Below, piece after piece: positions 9,078 through 22,511 of a DNA stretch of 64,000 nucleotides; within the stretch, counting starts at the first letter, position 1, and each line of letters starts with the position of its first letter. A program made the position numbers and the translations under genes. Source of the DNA: Bacteroidales bacterium (GTDB taxonomy: Bacteria; Bacteroidota; Bacteroidia; Bacteroidales; UBA932); the NCBI GenBank assembly GCA_017454905.1, contig JAFTCB010000025.1:61390-125389 (forward strand), given 5' to 3'. The notes beneath the pieces were generated by a model, which saw only the letters and a program-made list of their open reading frames with translations, ran no database searches and was not told the DNA's origin.

Positions 9078-10240
9078 AAATCAGGCAAAGATAACGATTC
9101 CTCGCTATCTTTGCAACGCCGCGAGCGGGCCTGGACCACGGAAGGGAAATGTTTGCGTAAAAAAGTGCGCAGGCTTTTCGCGTTCAGGCCATATCTGGCG
9201 GCCAGCTCTGTCACGGGCACATCCGCGGCCAGGTACTCTTCCGCGGCGTCCTTGAACTGCTCCCAGCTTTCCCGTTTGCACGAAGTGCCGTTGGGCAGCA
9301 GGACCCTGTTGGAGGCTTTCACCCGGGCGGCCAGTTCCGGATCATGTTCCCGCACGTACCAGCGGAGCCGGTCCGTGGAAGTGATGCCGGCGGCGAAAGC
9401 GGCATCGTGCATCGAAGATCCGGAACGCAGCAGCGCCATCGCGGGCGCATAGCGTTCTGCGGCGGAGACCGAATAGCGTTTCGGCTCCGACGCGGACGGT
9501 ATCGGAGCCGGACCGTCCACGCGACGGCGGAGCATGTCGTCTTTGTGCCAGTTGTACAGGTAGCTGCGGAAAGCCCCGGTCCGCACCCCGCAGCGGTAGC
9601 AGATCTCCGTAATCGGCAGCGATGTGGTGCGGAGCAGTTCCAGGGCCTGTGCGTAGCGTTCGACCGTCTCTTTGCGGGGCATGTGCGGCTGATTGCTGCC
9701 GTTTTTCTCGCCATAGCGGAGTTCCCTGCCGGACGCGGCAACGCGGGTCAGGTGCCGGGCTTCCGCAATCCGCTTGTGGTAGTAGAGGATATGCTCGCGC
9801 AACCCGGAATAGGAGACGCCGCAGCGTTCCGCTACTTCCTGGACGGACAGGTCGGTCGTCTCCAGCAGATGCACCGCCCGGGAGTATTGCTGCACACTCG
9901 CGCGGGTCGCGCCCCGGAAGATGCCGTCGGCGATGCCGAGCCTGCGGCGGAGCGCTTCGCGGTCCGGGATGATTTCCGGGAAATGCCTGCGCAGCTGATT
10001 GTTCAGGGCCGCCGGGCTCAGTCCGAATTCCCGGGCGATCCCGGAAATATTCATCCCGATATGGCCGATATCCGAGCAGGCGAGGATGGCATCCCGGTAT
10101 TTGGCCGACGTCTCCGGACGCTGTCCGAAACGGGGATAGGGTCTCTCCTCCGGGGAAGGGGTCCCGGATTCCGCCTTACTCGCGGACACAGCGGACGGGA
10201 CATCCATACGCATCATAATATCCGTTGTTAGAGTATGCAT
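9074..10240 (-). CDS. Protein of five tandem helix-turn-helix repeats, putative DNA-binding regulator
   Basis: I do not recognise a named family. The 388-residue protein is built from five units of about 45 residues, at roughly 48-92, 119-163, 196-240, 264-308 and 329-373, spaced about 70 apart. Each has the pattern aromatic-x2-Ala-x-x-L-L ... hydrophobic-x-E-(V/I)-A-x-(R/Y)-x-G-(V/L)-x-(A/S)-x-x-(L/F)-R, as in [18 protein letters not shown] and [18 protein letters not shown], typical of an HTH. No sensor, catalytic or membrane domain is visible. It follows the fimbrial operon in the same direction. The ATG at 10240 overlaps the preceding gene by 65 bases; the ATG at 10207 (residue 12) is also possible. 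A regulator of the fimbrial locus is inference. Confidence 0.75.
9086..9093 (-). promoter_or_regulatory. Probable -7 box of uvrB inside the HTH gene 3' end
   Basis: The minus strand reads TATCTTTG (TAnnTTTG) 9 bases before the uvrB ATG. A mirror copy on the plus strand at 9106-9113 makes a perfect inverted repeat of GCAAAGATA. No clear -33 TTTG was found. If used, the transcript would be almost leaderless. Confidence 0.5.
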
Positions 10241-12587
10241 GCAGTTTATCGAAAGTCAAGGTATAACTGACGGTTGCAGAATGAGCGGACGAGGCCCAGT
10301 ACACCCCGTCCTCCCCGGGACGGCGGCGCGCGCCGCTGCCATCGCTTCTCGTTCCCGAGGCATACAGGAAGATCCTTCCGGTTTGCTCCGCACGGACAAA
10401 ACCCTCGGGATAATAATAGCGGCCGCTCTTCTCCTGGTCCCAGACCGTCGTATATGTACCTTCCGGTTCATTCTCCGTCGTCAGGGGGCTGAATCCGCTC
10501 CAGACTCCGTTCACAGGCACCTTCCAGCCGGCCGGACAGGGATCATAGACAGACTTTTTGTGCTCCAGCGAAGCCTGGTTCCCGGCATGCTGCCAGAAAA
10601 GCCGGTCGTGCCACGGACTGTCCGCCCGGCCGACGGCAGCCATGTCGTCATCCGCGGCGGTCCAATTCTGCGAACTCTGGCAGATGAAGGTCATCGGATG
10701 GGTCACGGCATAGAGCGTATTCCTGGCACCTGCCGCCCCGGTCTGGTTCTTGCCGATGACCCGGATGCCGTTTCCGCTCAGAGAGCCCGTCACCACGGCA
10801 GACGCCGTCCCGCCCAGGTAGAAATAGTTGCTCCTGCCCTCCCGGTCCCTGTCCAGAAACGGATCCTTCCGTCCGAACTGGTAGAAAAGGCCCTGGCTTC
10901 CGGGCAGGGCCGGATCCGCACCGGCGGCTCCGAGGGAGCGGTCCATGATGAATCCTTTCGCATATCCGACCGTGCCGTCCGTTGCCGGCGTATTCCAGAG
11001 GGCGTTGTTGTACCGGTGGACTTCGCCCCCGCCGACACCGTAGATGTACTGCCCGGGCACGGGTACGACATACCTGTCCGGATCATAATCCGTGATCCAG
11101 AGGTGCCAGCTCCACAGGATGATGCCGTCGACTTTCATCGCCACGACGACATTCCCCTGCATGCCCGCGGACACCCTGACCTTGATGAAAGGCTGGGAAT
11201 GAGCCGGATTCGCCGGATCGAAGCCTGTCCCGGCATCGAAGCCGGACACAAGGAAAGCATCGTCCCCCGTATAGCCGGAGAGGTCGAAATCGCTCCAGAG
11301 CACTTCCGCCGTCCAGCGGGTCCCTCCGTCCAGCACATAGGAGGAATAGCCTTCCCGGGTGCTGGCGCCGTAGACTCCGCCGTTGACGCCGCTTTCATTC
11401 CAGAAGACGGCGGCCCGCCGGACCGGGAAAGCGTAGGTCCGGGACTGCCCTTCCGTCTGGGGAGGGTGCAGCATGTAGCAGTTGGCATCGGTCCCGAACG
11501 TAACCTCGCCCATATCCTCGATCCGGTAGTCATACCGGGCATCGCCTTTCGCATTGATGGAAATGTCGTAAGTGTACTTGTGGTTGGGCAGGAGATTGAA
11601 ATCGGAAGTCAGGTCCCCGCCCAGGTAGTAAGTATAGGCAATCGGCGTGCGGTCGGGTCCGTAGGTCCCGTAAAGGCGGAAACGGGTCGCCCCGCCGGGG
11701 GCGCCGCTGCCCTTGTTGTACTGCAGGGTGTTGCCGGTCGTCCCGCGGAGGTTGGCGGGCACGTAATAGGTGTAGGTCTGGACCGCGCCGGCATTGCCTT
11801 CTTCGGCAAAATCCTGGCGGACATAATCGAAACGGAAGGGAAACGCATCCGAAAAAGGATCGCGGAAGACGACGGAAGCATCCCCGGCGGTGAGCGCTGG
11901 ATCGATATGCGCGAGATAATAGTATTTGGCATTGATTCCGCACAGATGCACCTGAGAGAGGGTCACGACATCATCCCCGGACAGGCCGGAGGTATTGTTG
12001 GTGACCCGCACCACGATCTTGGCGACATTGCGCCTGAGCGTCAGCACCAGGGAGGTACCCGCCGTGATGCTCCCGGTCCGGAGCGAAGCGCTCATGCGGA
12101 GGTAATCCTGGCCGCCGGAGGAGATAAAGACCCCGGACAGTTCCGGGATGGTGGTATAATCCTGTTCCAGGAAAGCGCCCAGCGTCGTTCCTGAATTGAC
12201 GGAAATGCGTCCGAAGGTATTGGCCAGCACCACCACCGTGTTCGGGCCTTCGGATGCGACCAGGGTCAGCTGCTCATCCTCCGTCAGGGGCCAGTGGTCG
12301 AAATACACCTGACCGCCGACCAGCGGGGCCTCCGCCGTGACGCCGTTGAACTGCAGGACCAGGAAATTGGCGATCTGGCTGTCGCCGGTCACGCCCTCCG
12401 AATCCGGCTCCTGGATAGTCTTGGTCTGCGGCATGCCGTCTTCAAGGATGGCCGTCCGCAGGCAGAAAGACACGGGGACCCGGTCCGGCCCGCCCTCATC
12501 CGGAACCGGGTCTTTCATGCAAGAAGCAACGGAAAGCAACACCGCCGTGACGGCAGGGAGCAAAAAGGATCGGTAAAATGTTTTCAT
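10176..12587 (-). CDS. Fimbrial tip-like lipoprotein, DUF4906 region plus C-terminal FISUMP domain
   Basis: The product is 803 residues from the ATG at 12587, where MKTFYRSFLL starts a lipoprotein signal with the lipobox Cys at residue 23; the frame is open further upstream but lacks a signal. The N-terminal half has the fimbrillin-like pattern of Bacteroidales DUF4906 proteins (LRRNVAKIVVRV, then LLPNHKYTYDISINAKG, then NCYMLHPP). The C-terminal part carries YDPCPAGWKVP and a YWASS block, hallmarks of the FISUMP (Fibrobacter succinogenes paralogue) domain. Long surface lipoproteins at the end of fimbrial operons are usually tip or adhesin subunits. The stop lies inside the downstream HTH gene. 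Confidence 0.8.
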   Translation of the reverse strand: MKTFYRSFLLPAVTAVLLSVASCMKDPVPDEGGPDRVPVSFCLRTAILEDGMPQTKTIQEPDSEGVTGDSQIANFLVLQFNGVTAEAPLVGGQVYFDHWPLTEDEQLTLVASEGPNTVVVLANTFGRISVNSGTTLGAFLEQDYTTIPELSGVFISSGGQDYLRMSASLRTGSITAGTSLVLTLRRNVAKIVVRVTNNTSGLSGDDVVTLSQVHLCGINAKYYYLAHIDPALTAGDASVVFRDPFSDAFPFRFDYVRQDFAEEGNAGAVQTYTYYVPANLRGTTGNTLQYNKGSGAPGGATRFRLYGTYGPDRTPIAYTYYLGGDLTSDFNLLPNHKYTYDISINAKGDARYDYRIEDMGEVTFGTDANCYMLHPPQTEGQSRTYAFPVRRAAVFWNESGVNGGVYGASTREGYSSYVLDGGTRWTAEVLWSDFDLSGYTGDDAFLVSGFDAGTGFDPANPAHSQPFIKVRVSAGMQGNVVVAMKVDGIILWSWHLWITDYDPDRYVVPVPGQYIYGVGGGEVHRYNNALWNTPATDGTVGYAKGFIMDRSLGAAGADPALPGSQGLFYQFGRKDPFLDRDREGRSNYFYLGGTASAVVTGSLSGNGIRVIGKNQTGAAGARNTLYAVTHPMTFICQSSQNWTAADDDMAAVGRADSPWHDRLFWQHAGNQASLEHKKSVYDPCPAGWKVPVNGVWSGFSPLTTENEPEGTYTTVWDQEKSGRYYYPEGFVRAEQTGRIFLYASGTRSDGSGARRRPGEDGVYWASSAHSATVSYTLTFDKLHAYSNNGYYDAYGCPVRCVRE

Positions 12588-12598
12588 GGATATCCGGT

Positions 12599-13702
12599 TT
12601 AAAAATGGTCGTTCCACGCATCCGCGACGTATGCTCCCTCCGGAGTAGTCCATCCGTCCACGCGGACCGTCCCGATCACGCCAGGACTCTCCGAATCGTC
12701 TCCGGACAGGGTCCCGCCGTCGTCCCAGGCAGCGGTCAGGAGCGAGACGACGACATGGGATTTGGATACGCGCAGGCAATAGGTATAGTCCGTCATCGGC
12801 GACACCGGCTCCGTCAGGTCGACCAGGGCCCGGGAAGGATGGGCGGAGTCGTCCCCCAGCAGGATTTCGACCTGCGGCCTGAGTTCCGCATTCGCCGCAG
12901 CTTGATAATCGATGGCGGGGATTGTCTGCCGGGCTGAGGTCCAGGAACCGCCGTCGGCGCGTACCAGATGCATCGGCGCGCCGCCGCAGTCATAGAGCAC
13001 GACATCCCCGGAAGTGCGGCCGGCCGTCGAGAAGCCCGTGGTCAGATACCAGCGGCCGGCCAGGGTGCAGTTCCGCAATGTGATCCGCTGGATGTACGCT
13101 TCGGCCAGTTCTCCGCATTCGATCCGGACGCAGAGTCCCGCACGGCGGTCCCGGAGCACAAGCGCCGTCGAGGAGGCATAGACATACTCCCCGTCCAGCC
13201 AGGTGCCGGAAAGCGTTACGGGGACCGGGTCGCTGACATAGAGCTCCCGGTCCGGCTCCCAGGAATAATAACGCAGCGAGCCGTCCGGGGAGAAGGCCGC
13301 GGCCGGAGAGGCGGCGACGAGATAGGCGGGACCGTTGCTCCCGCGCAGCCCATACCGGGCGTCCCGGTCGGCTTCGTCCAGGGCGGCTGCCGGTGTACCG
13401 TCTTCCCTGAGCGGCAAGCCGGCAGCGTCCACCCGGCAGGGAGAAAGCCAGATCCCGCCCGCCACGGTAGCCTGGTGGTCGACGGGCAGGCTGCAATAAG
13501 TCCCCTGGGCGGTCAATGCCTGCGTAGACAGGTCGAACAAGGCAGCCCTGCAGGTATACTCGCCGGCACCCGGAGACTTCGTATCCAGGGGAAAGAGGAC
13601 CGTGGCCGCCTCCGCCGGAAGGCATTCCGGGAAGACGCGTTCGCAGGAAAGGAAGGAGAGGAGCAACGCCGCAGGCGGGAAAAGATGGAGCAAATGGGGC
13701 AT
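12599..13702 (-). CDS. Fimbrial-locus lipoprotein of unknown family
   Basis: This 367-residue protein has a signal peptide with lipobox FLSC (Cys20). The remainder is rich in Gly, Thr and beta-type segments. A weak fimbrillin-like order can be seen: a processed N-terminus, then a block (YLTTGFSTAG) and a final segment TVRVDGWT that resembles the terminal strand of fimbrillins. I cannot place it in a named family. It lies 7 bases after the fimbrillin gene at 13709 and 11 bases before the tip-like gene, so it is an operon member, probably a minor subunit exported as a lipoprotein. Confidence 0.7.
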   Translation of the reverse strand: MPHLLHLFPPAALLLSFLSCERVFPECLPAEAATVLFPLDTKSPGAGEYTCRAALFDLSTQALTAQGTYCSLPVDHQATVAGGIWLSPCRVDAAGLPLREDGTPAAALDEADRDARYGLRGSNGPAYLVAASPAAAFSPDGSLRYYSWEPDRELYVSDPVPVTLSGTWLDGEYVYASSTALVLRDRRAGLCVRIECGELAEAYIQRITLRNCTLAGRWYLTTGFSTAGRTSGDVVLYDCGGAPMHLVRADGGSWTSARQTIPAIDYQAAANAELRPQVEILLGDDSAHPSRALVDLTEPVSPMTDYTYCLRVSKSHVVVSLLTAAWDDGGTLSGDDSESPGVIGTVRVDGWTTPEGAYVADAWNDHF

Positions 13703-13708
13703 ATCGTT

Positions 13709-14767
13709 TCAGATTTCTTCTGTACCCAGGATTTCCGCCGTCCAATCGCGGCTGACGGTGATGCCGTCAAAGCAGACATAGTTGTCCAGGGTAAAATGGA
13801 AAGTATATTTGCAGCCGGGCTGGAAGCCGGAAGTCACGCCGTCATCATGCAGGAGATGCGCCCGCCTCAGGACAAAGGGCTGAAGTGTCTGTCCGTTCAT
13901 GGTGAAGGTGAACACCAGTTCATCATCATCTACTTCCGTCGGCACGAGCAACAGATATGCAGTGGCCGGCCGGTCGGCCGAGTTGACGGTCGGATAGTAT
14001 GGAGAGAAACTGATATTCATGGAGTCGCTCACCGTTCCCCCGGGATTGACCGCGCCGGTCAGGGCATTGAATGTCCCGGATGTGTAGAGGCGGGCCGTCG
14101 TGACTCCGTCCGCGTCCGGATCCCGCAGGGTGATGCCGATGTCGGTGAGGGAATACGATGATGCGCCGTTCACCAGCCGGAACTGGAAGGCCAGCAGGGA
14201 CAGGACATGCCGGAAACTGAACCGGGCCGTCAGTTCTCCGCCGGATCCCGGATCCAGGTCCGTATTGGCAGCCGGGTCCGGGTTCTCCACCGCGTACATC
14301 AGGTCCGCCTGGTCGTTCACCCGGCCGGCAATGGTGAACGGAATCGCGTCCGGGCCGGACAGGAAGGCATTCTGCGTATATGGCGCATAAGCATACAGGT
14401 CCGCCGCGGCGCCATCTTCCCGGACCGTCAGGGTGATGTTCTCGCAGGAGGCTGCCGTCGTGGCGCCGGTGGAGAAATCGCCTGCATAATAATAATTCCA
14501 GCTGTCCGTATCGTTCGAATACCGGGCACGGATATTCCAGGAATTGGGTTTGTGCGCCGTCGTCGTGCTGCCCCTTTCGCAAACGAAAATGCCGTATGTG
14601 CCGTTGTCGGGGAACACCGTACCGGTGACAGGGCCCTTGGTTGCCGCCGGCATTTCCGCAAGCGACGGGAGGATGCGGACTACCGCCTCACCGCCAGGGC
14701 GCGTCACAGGCTCCCGGGTGCAGGCCGGGAGGAAAAGCATCAATAAGAGAATGATCCGTTTCTGCAT
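13709..14767 (-). CDS. Fimbrillin family lipoprotein
   Basis: This 352-residue protein has a lipobox FLPAC (Cys16). Family features follow: a TKG sequence after the N-terminal strand, the sequence AYAPYTQN, then LMYAVENPD and FSFRHVLSLLAFQFRL, the helix-like block shared by Mfa-like/FimA-like proteins. It ends with GCKYTFHFTLDNYVCFDGITVSRDW, the typical terminal donor-strand region. The spacing to the next genes is short (4 and 6 bases). It is likely a structural subunit that Lol/BAM export, then a surface protease (not in this window), would release for polymerisation. Confidence 0.85.
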   Translation of the reverse strand: MQKRIILLLMLFLPACTREPVTRPGGEAVVRILPSLAEMPAATKGPVTGTVFPDNGTYGIFVCERGSTTTAHKPNSWNIRARYSNDTDSWNYYYAGDFSTGATTAASCENITLTVREDGAAADLYAYAPYTQNAFLSGPDAIPFTIAGRVNDQADLMYAVENPDPAANTDLDPGSGGELTARFSFRHVLSLLAFQFRLVNGASSYSLTDIGITLRDPDADGVTTARLYTSGTFNALTGAVNPGGTVSDSMNISFSPYYPTVNSADRPATAYLLLVPTEVDDDELVFTFTMNGQTLQPFVLRRAHLLHDDGVTSGFQPGCKYTFHFTLDNYVCFDGITVSRDWTAEILGTEEI

Positions 14768-14771
14768 GAAG

Positions 14772-15902
14772 TCAATACATTAGTTCCTGGCTGGCATGTG
14801 TGTTACCCGCGTCCGTCCAGTCCAGGATGGAGACGGCGAGGCGGGCCTCCTTGCGGTCTGCCACGGGCACGGTGATGGTATAACGGACGGTCTTGCCGAC
14901 AGGCCAGTCCGGCGTGCCGGCGAGGGGCAGGCTGACCACGTTTTCGTCCAGGCGGGCATCGCTCCCCCGGTTCTTGACGACATATGTGATGTCCAGGAAG
15001 GCTCCCTCCGGAAGTGTCTGGGGCAGCAGGTACAAGCGTCCGTTGATGGTATTGTTCAGCCACATGGCCTCGGCGCCGTCGAGATAATTGTCCCCGGTGA
15101 TGAGGTCCAGCGCCTGGGTGGAGAGCGTATAGGAAGCGACAGGCATGTCGCCGCTGCCGTCCAGCGGAGAGATGACACTGCACCATGCTTGACCCGGAAT
15201 CCCGACATTTTCCGTAAAATAAAGATACTCGGAGCCAATCACGTCACGGATGGAGATCCGGGTGACGGTCACCCCTTCTTCCGCATTGAGGGCTCCCTCG
15301 TATTTACACCAGAACTGGATGTCCGTGGTGAGATGCCGGGTAAAATCCAGCACCAGCCGGCCGGCATGGCGGTTCACGTCCAACAGGGGCGCAGCGGCGA
15401 TGAAATCGATCTGCGTGGCCGGGGTCGTACCGGGCGTAAAGCAGATCAGGGGCGATCCGGGCAGATAATGGTCGAGCCGGTCCGTGAGGGATGTTTCCGG
15501 ATTGACCGTCAGGCAGATATCCGAGTCCGGGCCGGTATCCTCCCGGTAAGGAGCATAACAAAAATAACTGAGCGTACCGTCCAGGGGATAATAGACAGGG
15601 TCCGGCGCACCCGTGGCGGTCATGCCGTGCCAGGTATCCCCCGACAAGCCGAAGCGGTGGTTCCAGATATACGGCCGGGATCCGGCGCCGAAGACTTCCC
15701 CTTCCGGTGTATACCAGGCGCTGACACTGAAATGCTGGGCGGCCAGGCGTTCCACGGTCGTCAGCTGCGGAGCGCCTTTGGTCCCAGATGCCCGGGCACT
15801 GAATTCCACGGAGATCCGGGCTGCAGGCACCGGCTCCCGGTCGCACGCCGTTCCGGCAATGGCCGGCATGGCAAGGATGATGAAGATGGCGGATTTTCTC
15901 AT
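14772..15902 (-). CDS. Fimbrillin family lipoprotein
   Basis: 376 residues with lipobox AGTAC (Cys20). It shows the fimbrillin order: RASGTKG after the first strand, YFCYAPYRED, then IDFIAAAPLLDVNRHAGRLVLDFTRHLTTDIQFW (read in pieces: an I-D-F-I-A block followed by a strand-turn block), and a terminal KTVRYTITVPVADRKEARLAVSI region with DW. It is the second of three consecutive fimbrillin-like genes and differs clearly from both neighbours, so the genes are not recent duplicates. A gap of about 50 bases separates it from the fimbrillin gene at 15952. Confidence 0.82.
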   Translation of the reverse strand: MRKSAIFIILAMPAIAGTACDREPVPAARISVEFSARASGTKGAPQLTTVERLAAQHFSVSAWYTPEGEVFGAGSRPYIWNHRFGLSGDTWHGMTATGAPDPVYYPLDGTLSYFCYAPYREDTGPDSDICLTVNPETSLTDRLDHYLPGSPLICFTPGTTPATQIDFIAAAPLLDVNRHAGRLVLDFTRHLTTDIQFWCKYEGALNAEEGVTVTRISIRDVIGSEYLYFTENVGIPGQAWCSVISPLDGSGDMPVASYTLSTQALDLITGDNYLDGAEAMWLNNTINGRLYLLPQTLPEGAFLDITYVVKNRGSDARLDENVVSLPLAGTPDWPVGKTVRYTITVPVADRKEARLAVSILDWTDAGNTHASQELMY

Positions 15903-15951: not shown

Positions 15952-17124
15952 CTATTCGAGGACGAAAGTGTCGGCGACGCGATCGAAATCGACGACCGTC
16001 TCCGTGATGATGATTTCGTTCAGATTGATATCAAGGTTATAGACATACTTGTAGCCGGCCTGCCAGACACGGCGGGGCACGTTGTAGTAGTACTGCATCG
16101 TGTTGCCGCCGACGGTATAGGTGACACAGAAGTTCCTGGCCTGCTGCTGCGGGACGAGCAGGGTCTCGCCGAGCTGGACATAGGCATTCTCCGTCAGGGC
16201 GGTGCCGTAATCCACGGCCGAGCCGATTGCCGGAGACTCGATGTTGCAAGGGCTTACGGACGGCGTTCCGGCAAAGGAAGGCATTTTCCAGTTGGCTGCC
16301 ACGACGCCCTCGCCCGCTGCGTCAAAAGACCAGCCGGCCACGAGATCGTTGCGCTGGTTGTCCACCTGGAAGGTACCCCGGGTCTGCAGGGTCACCTGGC
16401 CCGCGGCCGGAGCGCTGCAATCCGCATAGGCCTTCGGCGACGCACCGTTCAGTTCGGCATTCCGCGCAGCGATAAACTCCGGCGTCACGAAGGAAATGTC
16501 ATTGACTGCCAGGCCGGAGGCCGCCTGGTTGATGCGGACATTGAAAATCAGGAGGGCCTGCGCATGCCGGAACTCCATCTTGATATACGGTGTCGTACCG
16601 GTGGCCAGGGATGTCTGCCCGTTGGCGGCCGCATACAGGAGATCCACCTGATTGGCATAGGTATCCCAGGAAGCCACGGTAAAATCCCGGGCCGCCACGG
16701 CGCCGTTGAAAGCAGGAGCGGGAATCCCCGCCTTCGCGCCCTTCGGCAGGGCATAAGCCAGGAAATCCATGGACGATCCGCCGACCGGCCAGTACAGGGG
16801 AGAAGCATCCGCGGCGGATTCATCCTCATAATGATGCCAGTCGGGATCTCCCGTCCCCGCCGTCACCTTGTTCATGAACAGCTGGTCGGTGAAGAAGTGC
16901 GGTGTCTCCAGCGAGCCGTCCGATGCATACTGGGAAGCGGAAGCATAGATGGCGTAACCCTCGTCGTCGAAACTTGTTCCGGAGAGTTCCCCGGCCTTCG
17001 TGACGCCCTGGAGGGTGGTTTTGAAGCCGATTTCGCCCGGGGTCCCAACGACTGTGGTCCCGGTTCTGTCGCAGGCGGCCAGCATGAGCAGGGCCGCAGC
17101 TACCAGGAAGATTGTCTTTTTCAT
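15952..17124 (-). CDS. Fimbrillin family lipoprotein, first of the three
   Basis: 390 residues, lipobox LMLAAC (Cys18). Fimbrillin features: IGFKTTLQGVTKAG, DFLAYALPKG, VDLLYAAANGQTS, MEFRHAQALLIFNVRI, then GYKYVYNLDINLNEI and a final VVDFD strand. As first of the three fimbrillin-like genes and with good matches to the family it may be the major structural subunit; this is inference from order. The ATG is preceded by an AT-rich 30-base gap from the DUF5119-like gene. Confidence 0.87.
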   Translation of the reverse strand: MKKTIFLVAAALLMLAACDRTGTTVVGTPGEIGFKTTLQGVTKAGELSGTSFDDEGYAIYASASQYASDGSLETPHFFTDQLFMNKVTAGTGDPDWHHYEDESAADASPLYWPVGGSSMDFLAYALPKGAKAGIPAPAFNGAVAARDFTVASWDTYANQVDLLYAAANGQTSLATGTTPYIKMEFRHAQALLIFNVRINQAASGLAVNDISFVTPEFIAARNAELNGASPKAYADCSAPAAGQVTLQTRGTFQVDNQRNDLVAGWSFDAAGEGVVAANWKMPSFAGTPSVSPCNIESPAIGSAVDYGTALTENAYVQLGETLLVPQQQARNFCVTYTVGGNTMQYYYNVPRRVWQAGYKYVYNLDINLNEIIITETVVDFDRVADTFVLE

Positions 17125-17155: not shown

Positions 17156-18160
17156 TTACAAGGGGATTTCCACGATTTCTGCATTCCAGTCGCCGACGGT
17201 CGGGACGATGCCCCCGGCATCCTGCTCCGGAACGCGGAGGGGCTCTTCGATGATGATCTCATGCCGGGTATTGTCCGGATTGTCGAACTGGTCGGTGACA
17301 TTGAAAGTCCACTGGAAGCGGAGGCCGTCATGGGTCGAGGCCAGGACATGGAGGAACACGTCATTCCGGGTCCCCGGGAGCTTGCCGAACGTGTTGAAAA
17401 CCGAGAAAAGGCGCCCGTTCTCCGCATCGGTCCCGCAGGAGAAGCCGATGGCGCAGGCTTTGCCCGGGAATCGTCTGTCCCAGAGATACTTGCCCGCCGC
17501 CTGACCGGTGATGTACACATCTGCCTGCCGGATCCGGTCCACGCCTTCGACCTGCCGGATCTCAAAGGTATATGTCTCCAGCAGGGTGGTCATCTCCGTC
17601 TCCAGCACGACCGGACTTTCCGTCCCGGCACGGACCGGTACGACGGCGTCCGGAATCCGTCCCGCGAAGAGATGATCCGGCTCGAAGATGACCGGGTACT
17701 CCGCCCCGGTTCCTTCTCCGGCGCGCGTCTTGATCTGGGATCCGGACCCTCCGGAAAAGGCATACGCTCCGGCGCGGCTTCCGGCGTCCGTCACCCGGGT
17801 CGTCTCCGTGCCCAGGGAGTACACCAGCAGGTCATAGGTCCCCGCCGGCACATCGACGAATCCGCCTCCGGCAGGGAGATAATCCTCCGCCACCAGCTCA
17901 TGCGTCAGGAGATCATAGAAGCAGGCACGCACCTGCCGGGGCATCTTGCCCGCAAGTTTTTCCCGAAAGAGCGGGTATTGCTCCGGATCAAGGTCTTCAG
18001 GAGTGATTGCCTGGAGCCGGATATCCAGTTTGAGATATACCCCGGAAAGGGCATCGTGCAGGGGGATGCGCCGGCAGGACGGCGCAAGAACGAGGAGGGC
18101 CAATGCCGGAGAGACTGTCCGGAAAAAACGGGAAATCCGTAGCAAGAACTTAAACATCAT
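17156..18160 (-). CDS. Fimbrial-locus lipoprotein, DUF5119-like
   Basis: 334 residues from the tandem ATGs at 18160/18157, preceded by a strong GGAGGAGG ribosome site and overlapping the upstream stop; the open frame further upstream lacks a signal. The lipoprotein signal ends with APSC (Cys29 counting from 18160). The block VRACFYDLLTHELVAEDY...VPAGTYDLLVYSLGTETT closely resembles DUF5119, a family found near the start of Bacteroidales fimbrial operons that is thought to anchor the fimbria, like FimB/Mfa2. The C-terminus WNAEIVEIPL resembles other family members. The family name is from memory. Confidence 0.8.
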   Translation of the reverse strand: MMFKFLLRISRFFRTVSPALALLVLAPSCRRIPLHDALSGVYLKLDIRLQAITPEDLDPEQYPLFREKLAGKMPRQVRACFYDLLTHELVAEDYLPAGGGFVDVPAGTYDLLVYSLGTETTRVTDAGSRAGAYAFSGGSGSQIKTRAGEGTGAEYPVIFEPDHLFAGRIPDAVVPVRAGTESPVVLETEMTTLLETYTFEIRQVEGVDRIRQADVYITGQAAGKYLWDRRFPGKACAIGFSCGTDAENGRLFSVFNTFGKLPGTRNDVFLHVLASTHDGLRFQWTFNVTDQFDNPDNTRHEIIIEEPLRVPEQDAGGIVPTVGDWNAEIVEIPL

Positions 18161-19422
18161 CGGACACCTCCTCCCTTGCTGCCATATATAGGAACGACGA
18201 TAGATATCTGTGCGCGTGTGGGTCCGAACCACCGGACCTGCCGGGTGACCCCGCTGCGGCGGAAAGCCTTGCCTCCCTGGACGAAAGTATCATAGGGCTG
18301 TGCGGGTGAGTAGATGCAGCCGATGCCCAGGCCGAATTCGAGGTGCATCCGGCCACCGAAGACGGGACAGGCATAGAGGAAATCCGCCCCTACATTGGCG
18401 AACTTGCCCTGGTACCCGCTCCAATCCCGCTCGAAATCATAATATCCGGCAGCGGCGTACAGCCCGATCGCATGCCCCAGGAGCCGTTGGCGGGAGGTCT
18501 TGCGCCTGTCCGGAAGCCAGTAGTGAAGCTCCAGGCCCAGGGCGAGCAGTTCCGTACAGGCGCCGCTGTAGTCCAGGCCCTCGCCGTGCTGCGGCCGCCA
18601 GATCCAGGGATAATACCAATCGGCGCCGACAGACCAATGTTCTCCGAGAGGCAGTTCGATCCCCAGGTTGGCGAATGGAACGGCCAGCGCGTTGGTGCGG
18701 ACGGCGGCCCGCACTTCCCTGCCGGTCAGGCCCGGGGAATTCCGGACCGGGGCGACGGCGGGGCGGTCCTGATAGACGGTATCCCGGACAACCCGCTCCA
18801 CGAAAAGCGTATCCCGCGGGACGGGAACTTCCCGGACCGGATGATAGACCACACAGCGGACATGTCCGCCGGCGGCACGGAGTTCCGGGAACACCTCCCG
18901 CTCCAGCCATCTCCAGGCTTCGCCGCCCCGGAGGAGTTTCAGCTGACGCTTGCGCCCGTCCACGACCCGGCCGTCCCGGACAATCCATTGCGGTGTGTGC
19001 CCGATGATGTACAGGGCTTCGTCCCGCCAGGGTATCTCCAGGGTGCGGACGATTGCGGCCAGGCTTTCCCAGTCTTCTCCGGCAGATTGATAATGGAAGA
19101 GAAGCGGGTCCAGCGGCAGGGTTTGCTGCAACAACCGTTCAAGCTTGCGCGCACGTTCGTCCGAGAGCCGGCGGTTGGCAGCCGTATTGCCGTCCGGAGA
19201 GGCTGACGTACGGACGCTGACATAACGCACGACCGCGGCCGTATCTGCCAGCAATGCCGACAGCTGCGTCCGGAAAGCCTCCAGCCGGGCGGCATTTTCC
19301 CGGTAAGACGGATCCACCTCCGAAGATCCCTTGCGGAAATAGACCTTCATCTCCAGGGTGTCGCTTTGTCTGGGTTGAGCGTTTGCCGCCGCCGTCCCGA
19401 GGAGCAGCGGCAGCAAACACAT
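18157..19422 (-). CDS. Outer-membrane DUF3575 family protein with OmpA-like N-terminal part, first gene of fimbrial operon
   Basis: 421 residues from the ATG at 19422, preceded by an AAGGG ribosome site; the frame remains open to 19566 but without signal peptide. A signal ends in AAANAQ. Residues about 25-200 resemble an OmpA-type peptidoglycan-binding half (VYFRKGSSEVDP, then RLSDERARKLERLL). The C-terminal half is a beta-rich DUF3575 region (LPLGEHWSVGADWYYPWIW ... HAIGLYAAAGYYDFE ... FGLGIGCIY). DUF3575 genes commonly open fimbrial operons in Bacteroidales. It overlaps the next gene by 4 bases. Confidence 0.85.
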   Translation of the reverse strand: MCLLPLLLGTAAANAQPRQSDTLEMKVYFRKGSSEVDPSYRENAARLEAFRTQLSALLADTAAVVRYVSVRTSASPDGNTAANRRLSDERARKLERLLQQTLPLDPLLFHYQSAGEDWESLAAIVRTLEIPWRDEALYIIGHTPQWIVRDGRVVDGRKRQLKLLRGGEAWRWLEREVFPELRAAGGHVRCVVYHPVREVPVPRDTLFVERVVRDTVYQDRPAVAPVRNSPGLTGREVRAAVRTNALAVPFANLGIELPLGEHWSVGADWYYPWIWRPQHGEGLDYSGACTELLALGLELHYWLPDRRKTSRQRLLGHAIGLYAAAGYYDFERDWSGYQGKFANVGADFLYACPVFGGRMHLEFGLGIGCIYSPAQPYDTFVQGGKAFRRSGVTRQVRWFGPTRAQISIVVPIYGSKGGGVR

Positions 19423-19499
19423 TGCAACCCTTAACTTAAAGAACACTGAAAAAGTTTGTTTTCTGTCCCTTTTTCCGATACAAAACAGAGGTATCAAAA

Positions 19500-19509
19500 A
19501 AACGGTCAT
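19500..19509 (+). repeat. Left candidate recombination site for the Mpi-type invertase
   Basis: Reads AAACGGTCAT. The half-sites AAACG and CAT surround a GT core and follow the remembered B. fragilis Mpi consensus ARACGTWCGT outside the core, with one mismatch. It is in inverted orientation relative to the site at 19656-19665 and shares 7 consecutive bases with it (AACGGTC). Confidence 0.45.
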
Positions 19510-19614
19510 TTTAATGATACGGTTTCCGGCTCCGCAAGACACCCGGGACAGGCCTGATAAAAACAAAACGCCGGACTGCCATTCAGCCCGGTCAGCGATT
19601 TTTTTTGATTTTTA

Positions 19615-19645
19615 TTTGGAATAAAGAAAAAAGGTTTTACCTTTG
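19615..19645 (+). promoter_or_regulatory. Consensus Bacteroidales promoter directed away from fimbrial operon
   Basis: TTTG at 19615-19618, exactly 19 bases, then TACCTTTG at 19638-19645, a full match to the -33/-7 consensus. No plus-strand gene follows until relA at 20412; the transcript would run antisense through the invertase gene. Inversion between the flanking sites would place its -7 box about 97 bases in front of the fimbrial operon start. Confidence 0.75.
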
Positions 19646-19655
19646 CAACGATTTA

Positions 19656-19665
19656 ACGACCGTTA
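19656..19665 (-). repeat. Right candidate recombination site for the Mpi-type invertase
   Basis: The minus strand reads TAACGGTCGT. It lies within a perfect palindrome (19651-19668) of 8-base half-sites around a 2-base core AC, the symmetry expected of a serine-invertase crossover site. The core AC is the complement of the GT core at the left site, so recombination would invert, not delete, the 150 bases between. Confidence 0.5.
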
Positions 19666-19705
19666 AATTAGCAAGTTAGCTCCGTTATACACCCAAATTC
19701 CGCGC

Positions 19706-20305
19706 TTATTTCATTTGGCGTCGCAGCCACCGGAGCAGGGTCGTTTTCGCCACGCCGCATTGCCGCGCAATTTCCGCTTTTGGCCTTCCTTTTGAGAGCA
19801 TTTCCAGGATCTTTTCCCGCTCATCATCCAGTTTGTAGCGCTTGTTTCCTGTGCCCGGCGGGCGGCCCAGTTTCCTGCCTTCTGCTTTTTTCCGGGCAAG
19901 GGCTTCCTTCGTACGCTGGCTGATCAGGTTGCGCTCGATCTCCGCTGACAGGCCGAAGGAAAACGCCAGGACCTTGGACTGGATGTCCTCGCCCAGGCGA
20001 TAACCTTCCTTGACCGTCCACACGCGGCAGCCGCGCTCCATGCAGGTGCTCAGGATTTTCATGATCATGAACATGCTCCTGCCCAGGCGGGACAGTTCGG
20101 AGCAGATGATGAGGTCGCCGCGGCGTATCCTTTTCAGAAGCCGCCCCAGTTCCCTTTTGTCGTAATCCCGGCTTCCCGAGATGGTTTCCTCGATCCAGCA
20201 ACCGGCGGAGAGGGCCTCCCGCAGGCAGAACTGCTCGATCTCATAGCGTTGGTTCTCGACCGTCTGACGGTCGGTGCTGACACGGATATAACAATAGATC
20301 ATCAT
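19706..20305 (-). CDS. Serine recombinase of the Mpi (master DNA invertase) family
   Basis: 199 residues from the ATG at 20305 (or 198 from 20302). The resolvase/invertase catalytic domain starts MIYCYIRVSTD, with the nucleophilic Ser about residue 9-10; it continues with CSELSRLGRSMFMIMKI, YRLGEDIQSKVLAFSFGL and SAEIERNLISQRTKEAL, the long E-helix block. The C-terminus (about 145-199) is a helix-turn-helix (KAEIARQCGVAKTTLLRWL). Length and sequence closely resemble Mpi of Bacteroides fragilis, which switches many promoters for surface polysaccharides. It lies immediately upstream of the fimbrial operon, the likely target. Confidence 0.93.
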   Translation of the reverse strand: MMIYCYIRVSTDRQTVENQRYEIEQFCLREALSAGCWIEETISGSRDYDKRELGRLLKRIRRGDLIICSELSRLGRSMFMIMKILSTCMERGCRVWTVKEGYRLGEDIQSKVLAFSFGLSAEIERNLISQRTKEALARKKAEGRKLGRPPGTGNKRYKLDDEREKILEMLSKGRPKAEIARQCGVAKTTLLRWLRRQMK

Positions 20306-20382
20306 AGGTGTATTTCCGATAAATATCGGCAATCACCCGCGTGTTCCGGCACGACAAAATCGTTCTGTTCCGGAAAATTGCC

Positions 20383-20390
20383 TATATTTG
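20383..20390 (+). promoter_or_regulatory. -7 box of relA
   Basis: TATATTTG matches TAnnTTTG and lies 21 bases before the relA ATG at 20412. The -33 element is weak (TTCTG at 20363-20367). It rules out the in-frame start at 20388, which would lie within the box. Confidence 0.6.
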
Positions 20391-20411
20391 TTACGGATAC
20401 GGCCAAACAGT

Positions 20412-22511
20412 ATGGAACATCTTATCGAACAGGCTCGCGCCCTGGCATGGGAGACATTGAAAGAGGATCTTCGTCACGACGGTTCCCCGTTTTTCGGACA
20501 CCCCGATAACGTTGCCCGCATCGTAAAGGACGAGATCGGTCTTCCGGATTCCTGTGTGGCTGCGGTCTACCTGCACGAAGCCGCCCGGCTCCACCCGGAG
20601 GTCGATCTCCGCGCCTTCCCGCAGGACGTCCTCACCATCGTGGACGGCCTCAACAAGATCTCGACCATCAAACCCAAGGACACCCGCCTGGAAGCGGAGA
20701 ACTACAAAAGGCTCATCGTCCAATACTCCACCGACCCGCGCGTGACCGTCATCAAGATCGCCGACCGGCTGGAAGTGATGCGCCAGCTGCAGATCTTCCC
20801 CAAGACTTCCCGGGACCAGAAGCTGCTGGAGACCCTGATGCTCTACATGCCGCTGGCCCACCAGCTCGGCCTGTACAACATCAATAACGAACTGGGCAAC
20901 ATCTGGTTCCGCTATTCTGACCCGGAGCAATACCGCGCCATCACCAACAAGCTCAAAGCCACGGAGAAAGACCGGGAGCAGATCACGGCGGAGTTCATCG
21001 AGCCGCTCAAGAAGAAACTCTCCGAGGCCGGCATCGTCTACAAGCTGAAGATCCGTACCAAGAGCGCCTATTCGATCTACCGCAAGATGCAGATGCAGAA
21101 GGTCCCGTTCGAAGGGGTCTATGATATCTTCGCCATCCGTTTCATCATCGATTGCGAGGACGACCCGAAAGTCGAAAAAGACCTCTGCTGGAAAGTGTTC
21201 TCCTATGTGACGGAAGAATACGAATCGGACACGAAACGGCTGCGAGACTGGCTCACCACCCCGCGTCCCAACGGCTACGAATCCCTCCATATCACCGTCA
21301 AGAACCGGCAGGGCCAGGCTCTCGAGGTCCAGATCCGCACCAAGCGGATGGATTTCGAAGCCGAGAACGGCAATGCCGCACACTGGGCCTACAAAGGTAT
21401 CCATCACGAGGCCACCCTGGACCGCTGGCTCCAGTCCGTCCGCGATGCCCTGGAGCATCCGCTGGAAGCTTCGCCGGAGGAAATGCCGGCTCCGCCCGAT
21501 AAGGAGATTTTCGTTTTCACGCCCAGCGGGGAACTCCGCATCCTGCCTGCCGGTGCGTCCGTGCTGGATTTCGCTTTCAACATCCACTCCGGTCTCGGCT
21601 GCCGCTGCATCGGGGGACGGGTCGGCGGCCGCGGCGTCCCGATCCGGGAGAAACTCAAGACCGGCGATGTCGTGGAGATCCTGACCCGCAAGGACCAGCG
21701 GCCCAGCCGCGACTGGCTGAACTGGGTCGTCACCTCCAAGGCCCGCACCAAGATCAAGCAGGAACTTGATGCCGATGAGCGGAAGGCCGCGGCAGACGGC
21801 CGCGAAATCCTGGGCCGCCGCCTGCGCAACTGGAAACTGGAACTGCCGGACGAATGGCTCATGGAGTTCCTCAAAGCGCGCAAGTATCCCTCCATCCTGC
21901 CTTTCATGGCAGCCATTTCCCGGGAGGAAGTCGATGTCAATGACATCAAGGCCTTCATCCTCCAGAAGCAGTCAGCCCAGCAGGAGCGTCCCGCCCAGAC
22001 GGATGCGGCTGCGGTGGAAAACACCGTGCCGAAAGGGTACGCCGGCTCCTCTTCCGACGACATCCTCGTCATCAACGCCAAGAATGTCAAAGGTCTGGAT
22101 TACAAGATGTCCAAATGCTGCAATCCGGTCTTCGGCGACGATGTCTTCGGATTCGTGACCCGCACGGAAGGCATCAAGATCCACCGGATCTCCTGCCCCA
22201 ATGCCGCCCGGCTCATGGAGCGCTACCCGTACCGGATCCAGAAAGTCGTCTGGCAGGACAATCCCAACACCGGAGACTTCCAGTGCACGCTGACCGTCAC
22301 AGCCGAACTGGACCACCCGGTCCTGAGTGCCATCATGGCCGTCATCGGACAGTTCAAAGTCTCGATGCGCACCTTCAATGTCAAGGAAAACCTGCGTGCC
22401 GGGACTTACGAGATCACCATCCGCCTGCTGGTGCCTTCCAGCGCGGAACTGGACAAAGTCATCTCGCAGGTCGGCAGCATCAAGCAGGTCATCAAAATAC
22501 GCAGGAACTGA
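20412..22511 (+). CDS. relA: RelA-type (p)ppGpp synthetase with degenerate hydrolase domain
   Basis: 699 residues. The order is HD-like hydrolase domain, synthetase domain (IRTKSAYSIYRKM, then YDIFAIRFI and NGYESLHITV), TGS domain (IFVFTPSGELRILPAGASV), a helical/zinc-type segment (KCCNPVFGDDVFGFVT), and a C-terminal ACT domain. In the hydrolase domain the HDxxED box is replaced by HEAARL (residues 55-60), so ppGpp hydrolysis should be lost while the synthetase motifs are intact. This suggests a monofunctional synthetase and a separate hydrolase elsewhere. The start is ATG at 20412, just downstream of a -7 box. It is coupled to the next gene by ATGA. Confidence 0.93.
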   Translation: MEHLIEQARALAWETLKEDLRHDGSPFFGHPDNVARIVKDEIGLPDSCVAAVYLHEAARLHPEVDLRAFPQDVLTIVDGLNKISTIKPKDTRLEAENYKRLIVQYSTDPRVTVIKIADRLEVMRQLQIFPKTSRDQKLLETLMLYMPLAHQLGLYNINNELGNIWFRYSDPEQYRAITNKLKATEKDREQITAEFIEPLKKKLSEAGIVYKLKIRTKSAYSIYRKMQMQKVPFEGVYDIFAIRFIIDCEDDPKVEKDLCWKVFSYVTEEYESDTKRLRDWLTTPRPNGYESLHITVKNRQGQALEVQIRTKRMDFEAENGNAAHWAYKGIHHEATLDRWLQSVRDALEHPLEASPEEMPAPPDKEIFVFTPSGELRILPAGASVLDFAFNIHSGLGCRCIGGRVGGRGVPIREKLKTGDVVEILTRKDQRPSRDWLNWVVTSKARTKIKQELDADERKAAADGREILGRRLRNWKLELPDEWLMEFLKARKYPSILPFMAAISREEVDVNDIKAFILQKQSAQQERPAQTDAAAVENTVPKGYAGSSSDDILVINAKNVKGLDYKMSKCCNPVFGDDVFGFVTRTEGIKIHRISCPNAARLMERYPYRIQKVVWQDNPNTGDFQCTLTVTAELDHPVLSAIMAVIGQFKVSMRTFNVKENLRAGTYEITIRLLVPSSAELDKVISQVGSIKQVIKIRRN

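Follow-up and report, generated by a model that had tools for sequence, protein, structure and literature searches.

A putative invertible promoter-terminator cassette beside an Mpi-family serine recombinase gene and a pilus-like operon in a Bacteroidales bacterium

Introduction

Mpi of Bacteroides fragilis, a serine recombinase, is described as a master recombinase acting on 13 regions, seven of which are capsule promoters (PMC4747536), and a primer for the promoter of the PSA locus in the same species contains AGACGAACGT (PMC10939037). A further phase-variable locus of B. fragilis carries a fimbrial-protein match and is treated under type V pili, with reference to a paper titled on tyrosine recombinases (PMC12632263). 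Fimbrillin genes are enriched near groups of invertons, and terminators are named as still to be examined in inverton work (PMC11892184). A survey of resistance genes in Bacteroidales found the ON orientation to predominate in just 4 of 96 cases of an invertible promoter located downstream of an invertase gene (PMC8748976). In Escherichia coli, the fimS segment carries the fimbrial promoter together with a Rho-dependent terminator that affects fimE, and it is inverted by a tyrosine integrase (PMC9993118).

The window, i.e., the whole stretch of 64 kb analysed here, comes from a Bacteroidales genome of 2.4 Mb that is 81.7% complete, where it forms the end of a contig (G000:C57:61390-125389). 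A preliminary description had read a short intergenic region in it as an invertible promoter in the OFF orientation, under an Mpi-type invertase and controlling a fimbrial operon. Our analysis supports this interpretation, which proved largely right, and from the sequence and its comparison with related loci we infer the inversion itself. The 152-bp segment at 19507-19658 is very probably an invertible promoter-terminator cassette that is flipped by the adjacent Mpi-family recombinase, as judged from the enzyme family, the anatomy of the segment and its orthologues.

Organisation of the locus and the pilus-like operon

The gene order comprises a divergent RelA/SpoT gene, the gene of a 199-aa serine recombinase on the minus strand, an intergenic region of 283 nt and a minus-strand run of pilus-like genes, with the invertase and the operon co-directional (both minus). 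The genes are as follows:

20412..22511, plus strand: RelA/SpoT homologue, divergent neighbour outside the switch (PF04607, 4.2e-30)
19706..20305, minus strand: Mpi-family serine recombinase (invertase), 199 aa (NCBIfam NF009949, PF00239)
18157..19422, minus strand: DUF3575 / OmpA-like protein, first operon gene (PF12099, 7.9e-15)
17156..18142, minus strand: DUF5119 protein (PF17145, 1.7e-12)
15952..17124, minus strand: fimbrillin-like pilin (PF13149 Mfa_like_1, 3.1e-19)
14772..15902, minus strand: fimbrillin-like pilin (PF13149, 7.2e-07)
13709..14767, minus strand: fimbrillin-like pilin (PF13149, 2.5e-20)
12599..13702, minus strand: operon gene with no Pfam or NCBIfam family match at 1e-3
10176..12584, minus strand: DUF4906 protein, last gene of the run (PF16249, 6.4e-09, on 10236-12581)

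The operon that had been called fimbrial was borne out as pilus-like, with three Mfa_like_1 proteins and the DUF5119, DUF3575 and DUF4906 proteins in one run; several fimbrillin-like genes per run are the mark of a type V (Bacteroidota) pilus operon. The DUF3575 gene starts at ATG 19422, and an in-frame GTG at 19446 is possible as well, according to a by-eye comparison with the related loci G118 and G014. The Rfam and tRNA scans of the 64-kb window returned no matches.

The Mpi-family invertase and its relatives

The assignment of the recombinase to the Mpi type was confirmed by a whole-protein match to NF009949 with 306.5 bits against a cut-off of 272. The PF00239 Resolvase domain (3.8e-33) and a C-terminal HTH_7 domain were both found above cut-off. 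Its nearest solved relatives are annotated as DNA-invertase (4m6f and 3uj3), and it aligns also with the Tn3 and gamma-delta resolvases; the residues R8-V-S10 align with Tn3 resolvase, and SRLGR at 72-76 aligns with resolvase and Gin-type invertase. No second such invertase was found in the bacterium's own genome (81.7% complete), the sole one being that of the present locus. Judging by record titles, the relatives retrieved by the invertase search come mostly from metagenome-assembled gut and rumen genomes, and plasmid records gave partial invertase matches only.

Many of the relatives with 62-69% identity appear, by eye, beside restriction-modification specificity genes; this was tested for L101 and L091 (63% identity), where genes for TaqI_C specificity and Eco57I methylase proteins adjoin the invertase gene. 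The enzyme could accordingly be mainly a shufflon recombinase for such specificity genes, with the pilus switch as a relic, and similar sequence follows the invertase gene in more loci (by eye). We regard this as highly improbable, as the relatives with 75% (G014) and 80% (G118) identity adjoin the same pilus operon, the only such invertase of the own genome lies at the pilus operon, and the crossover sites of the window rank high among the site pairs described below. The stretches L101:5621-9895 and L091:5612-9914 are themselves probably shufflons of type IIG-like restriction-modification systems.

Contig ends were counted in 80 loci kept of 147. They fell within 200 nt past the invertase gene in 22 of the 80 on the downstream side (one of them inside the gene) versus 1 of the 80 on the upstream side. 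These frequent downstream stops suggest that the enzyme family is probably active, and they would be expected of DNA that rearranges in the sampled populations. The excess was not counted in favour of inversion at the present locus, because many such ends belong to the apparent restriction-modification shufflons.

Some relatives with about 50% identity adjoin TonB-dependent receptor-like genes, which was confirmed for the gene in L022. In several of the relatives L022-L030 (46-51%), a single AAACGNNCGTTT-like site was seen by eye downstream of the invertase gene, with a promoter-like stretch in forward orientation on one side of it and a TonB-dependent receptor-like gene on the other; no partner sites were found for these AAACGNNCGTTT-like sites. 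In L084 and L243, downstream of an Mpi-family invertase gene, a lipoprotein-like gene is preceded by one TTTAAACGAACGTTATAATT site.

Promoter, crossover sites and terminator in the intergenic region

The following features were located between the invertase gene and the operon:

19615..19645, plus strand: Bacteroidota sigma-70 type promoter TTTG-N19-TACCTTTG, OFF orientation (same orientation in G118)
19651..19668, minus strand: predicted invertase-side crossover site ATTTAACG-GT-CGTTAAAT (core 19659-19660, site model 20.4 bits)
19497..19514, plus strand: predicted operon-side crossover site AAAAAACG-GT-CATTTTAA (core 19505-19506, site model 16.4 bits)
19507..19658, no strand: predicted invertible segment between the cores, 152 bp (from the position of the two cores)
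19561..19591, minus strand: predicted intrinsic terminator, hairpin 19571-19591 (8 pairs, -12.8 kcal/mol) and a T-rich tail

The promoter has the full consensus and points away from the operon, as had been described: TTTG lies at 19615-19618 and is followed, after 19 bases, by TACCTTTG at 19638-19645 on the plus strand. Within the 64 kb, the pattern TTTG-N19-TANNTTTG is present at two positions, 19615 (plus) and 29009 (minus). The absence of a good promoter facing the operon likewise held, since none with at least 8/10 matches was found on the minus strand (spacers 18-21) in 19400-20420. By arithmetic, inversion would place the promoter at 19550-19520 on the minus strand, 97 nt from ATG 19422, in agreement with the proposed distance of about 97 bases, and 73 nt from the in-frame GTG 19446.

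The repeats that had been said to bracket the promoter, AAACGGTCAT at 19500-19509 and plus-strand ACGACCGTTA (minus TAACGGTCGT) at 19656-19665, do so, but as a plain repeat they are at chance level. The cores, GT at 19505-19506 and AC at 19659-19660, can be read directly in the sequence as an inverted pair with one shared core, and the right site is indeed a perfect 8+2+8 palindrome, ATTTAACG-AC-CGTTAAAT on the plus strand at 19651-19668. The region thus has the layout of an inverton, a promoter between two inverted recombination sites with an identical core, and the two sites are identical at only 11 of 18 positions. No inverted copy of the intergenic region was found in this assembly: it is present in one copy only, and the other eight matches are short and weak. 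Two extra intergenic matches adjoin apparent tRNA sequence and show no such site pair by eye. Viral contigs gave 0 matches to an exact stretch of 28 nt, a result of little informative weight.

The segment also contains the predicted terminator, which is absent from the preliminary description. In the current orientation its hairpin reads from the invertase gene towards the operon, and none of 100 shuffled versions of the segment attained its score; across the segments of the invertons compared below, some weaker terminator appeared in 11-28 of 100 shuffles. A built-in scan found the same terminator, with 1 found over 1.6 kb against 2.0 in shuffles, which is not significant. A terminator after the invertase gene is ordinary by itself, and what is notable is its position inside the segment that is predicted to flip. 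It bears on a further explanation, in which transcription running on from the invertase gene serves the operon and the plus-strand promoter plays no part. The two are co-directional, as read-through would need, but a terminator-like minus-strand hairpin stands between them and no minus-strand promoter of at least 8/10 was found upstream of the invertase gene up to 20420, which makes this explanation extremely improbable.

Comparative loci

We fetched 30 DUF3575 loci with up to 1.5 kb of flank from the genus samples (200 and 400 genomes searched). Three of them (the window and its orthologous loci G118 and G014) have this invertase beside the gene; among the other 27, some have a gene-facing promoter (a strict one in L121 and L122) and some do not. 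In G118, TTTG-N19-TACCTTTG is oriented as it is in the window, and several neighbouring genes are kept (by eye). In G014, an 11/11 inverted stretch (GGACATTAAAA) surrounds the degenerate promoter TATCTTCG, and there is no strict promoter match. Three more loci have the same layout with partly different targets: the invertase and inverton are followed in L097 by DUF3575 and DUF5119, in L267 by a small ORF and an Mfa_like_1 protein, and in L016 by a small ORF and a lipoprotein that matches no Pfam family.

The promoter is aimed back at the invertase gene, i.e., OFF, in all six loci (window, G118, G014, L097, L016 and L267), with a promoter match of 10/10 in four of them, 9/10 in L267 and a by-eye assignment in G014. 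This counts against inversion, as a fixed promoter would give the same result. The plus-strand promoter might never invert and might run antisense to the 3' end of the invertase gene and limit the enzyme, which would act elsewhere; the 6/6 OFF loci of the same layout and the orientation conserved in G118 fit such a fixed promoter. It would, however, leave unexplained why both ends carry sites that fit the model with locus-specific shared cores, and why no promoter faces the operon. Moreover, in L246, which has another layout with a divergent Mpi-family invertase and a TonB-dependent receptor gene, the promoter of the inverton is aimed at the receptor gene (ON). On balance, we hold a fixed promoter to be unlikely. 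In the inverton L246:1915-2006, the flipped state would point the promoter at the invertase gene itself.

The predicted terminator recurs in these elements. According to our own scoring, a candidate terminator lies opposite the promoter strand in six of seven invertons and on the promoter strand in none of the seven, and the score was reached by 0 of 100 shuffles in five invertons and by 1 of 100 in G118. The miss is L097, where there is a strong hairpin without a T tail.

Genome G204, of the same genus, has four matches to the pattern of site plus promoter, and a 61% identical invertase is encoded elsewhere in this genome. The inverted partner site in L193 (G204) is 17/18 identical. Two fetched G204 elements lie at contig ends. 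The element L193:3996-4131 (G204:C38) and those of G204:C45, C48 and C50 are near-identical and look like a multi-locus Mpi-type system.

Chance tests and the site model

The plain repeat pair was not significant against dinucleotide shuffles of the 283-nt intergenic region. At lengths 10, 12, 14 and 18, an equal or better best repeat was obtained in 4, 86, 76 and 65 of 100 shuffles, and the best intergenic repeats at these lengths are other A-rich stretches and not the pair reported. Plain inverted-repeat statistics, which were not significant for either the window or G118, were discarded as evidence.

The site model is based on an 8-nt half-site and was built from G014, L016, L097 and the repeated element of G204. 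In this model, the 8-nt half-sites are AT-rich, have CG, GG or TG as their usual ending and flank a 2-bp core whose bases are free. With one locus left out at a time, and L267 added, the two ends ranked 1 and 2 in 7/7 loci and the cores were equal within the locus in 7/7, a figure that is partly built in because the sites used for training had been selected by eye as pairs with equal cores. The cleaner held-out tests are those of the window and G118, both outside the training set. In the window, the two sites ranked 1 and 2 in the intergenic region (20.4 and 16.4 bits; the next, overlapping, 6.1) with the same GT core, and the pair score was reached by 0 of 1000 dinucleotide shuffles. The two ends in G118 likewise ranked 1 and 2, with the core AA and 0 of 1000 shuffles. 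When left out of training, G014 (core GA) gave 3 of 1000 shuffles and L097 (core TT) 0 of 1000, and the two ends in L016 ranked 1 and 2 in a region extended to include the first site. The cores across the seven loci are GT, AA, GA, TT, TT, AA and TC (in the invertase sense, G204 in the strand used), which amounts to five cores when orientation is considered and three when it is not.

In the whole 64 kb, the two sites of the window are the only ones with at least 15 bits. A total of 10 distinct same-core inverted pairs with at least 24 bits were found in 1.50 Mb of fetched loci (copies included), seven of which have a promoter between the sites, and the pair of the window scores second among the 10. 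The L284 pair and a second L267 pair were dropped, as no promoter lies between their sites.

Genus-wide pattern and repeat scans

The composite pattern of site and promoter gave 41 matches in 34 of the 400 genus genomes, compared with 4 for a control pattern read backwards. Of the 38 matches fetched besides the window, a partner site of at least 14/18 was present in L193 only, and a 46-51% identical invertase lay within about 0.8 kb in seven. The enrichment therefore supports the site motif and not the existence of 41 invertons. In the own genome (81.7% complete), the exact pattern, which misses imperfect sites, occurs once, at this locus; this search gave no picture of a master control of many scattered promoters in the B. 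fragilis style.

The repeat scan of 148 distinct invertase genes gave 24 rows with at least 14/18, of which four have a promoter-like site of at least 9/10: downstream of the gene in L016 and L240 (the same element as L097) and upstream in L256 and L264. It misses the switches of the window, G118, G014, L246 and L267, because their repeats are weaker. The strict pattern scan returned the window, L097 and a weak pair in L046. A AACGNNCGTT...AAACGGGCTGCAAAG stretch before a reverse promoter was seen near contig ends in G144, G325, G348, G349 and G150 (L161, L170, L177, L179 and L180).

Proposed switch

The locus is probably a real phase switch; its flipping and transcription, and the feedback considered below, we infer. 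The Mpi-family recombinase would cut at the shared GT core of the two inverted 18-bp sites and thereby flip the segment. In the assembled state, which is OFF, the promoter is directed at the 3' end of the invertase gene. The terminator on the opposite strand, if active, would end the transcripts of the invertase gene before the operon. After inversion, the promoter at 19550 to 19520 on the minus strand would drive the DUF3575 gene and turn the pilus-like operon ON, and the terminator would then face away from the operon. The net effect would be phase variation of a surface pilus.

More tentatively, the cassette might set its own switching rate. In OFF, transcription from the promoter would enter the invertase gene at its 3' end and the terminator would trim the invertase transcript; in ON, both effects would be gone and the invertase message would run on into the pilus operon. 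With the orientation feeding back on the recombinase, the OFF state would be self-stabilising, and the cassette could be an independently arisen Bacteroidota counterpart, based on a serine recombinase, of fimE control. Such feedback, if true, would give a reason why all six loci were assembled OFF.

Comparison with known systems

A recurrent promoter-terminator cassette under a serine recombinase, with possible feedback on the recombinase, may be new. The literature searched, in which few subscription journals are covered, so that it is weak evidence of absence, described no pilus operon that an Mpi-type enzyme switches through a segment with a terminator of its own. Such a switch would connect the serine Mpi family, familiar from capsule switching, with dedicated control of type V pili in a large Bacteroidales genus. 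Moreover, the pairing of promoter and terminator makes feedback on the recombinase a testable prediction, and the site model can find such switches even when, as here, the repeats match too poorly to be picked up by repeat-based searches.

The pili of the window and the fim pili of E. coli are unrelated. The switch may work like fimS without being a member of the fimS class, given its serine recombinase. Like fimS, it is a small segment with both a promoter and a terminator, here a predicted one that would act on the recombinase transcript, but it combines a serine recombinase with an intrinsic-type hairpin, in contrast to the tyrosine integrase (FimB-FimE) and Rho-dependent terminator of E. 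coli (PMC9993118).

The invertible promoters of resistance genes resemble the present one in that the segment lies directly downstream of the invertase gene, the promoter is of the TTTG / TANNTTTGY type and the state is mostly OFF; they differ in having other targets, some of them on conjugative elements, and the word 'serine' is absent from the text of that work (PMC8748976). For the invertons found near fimbrillin genes, the recombinases named in the accessible parts of the report are tyrosine-type or plain integrases, unlike here, and terminators are mentioned only as future work (PMC11892184).

The closest likeness is to Mpi of B. fragilis, which belongs to the same NCBIfam equivalog family and inverts promoters of surface loci (PMC4747536), and the AGACGAACGT of the PSA primer is close to the AACGNNCGTT core of the sites in the window (PMC10939037). 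The primer sequence also agrees with the Mpi site consensus near ARACGTWCGT that the preliminary description had given. Compared through published descriptions, the family profile and the primer, the two systems differ in that the enzyme of the window adjoins a pilus operon, its segment carries a predicted terminator, and the exact pattern of site and promoter is confined, in its own genome, to this single locus.
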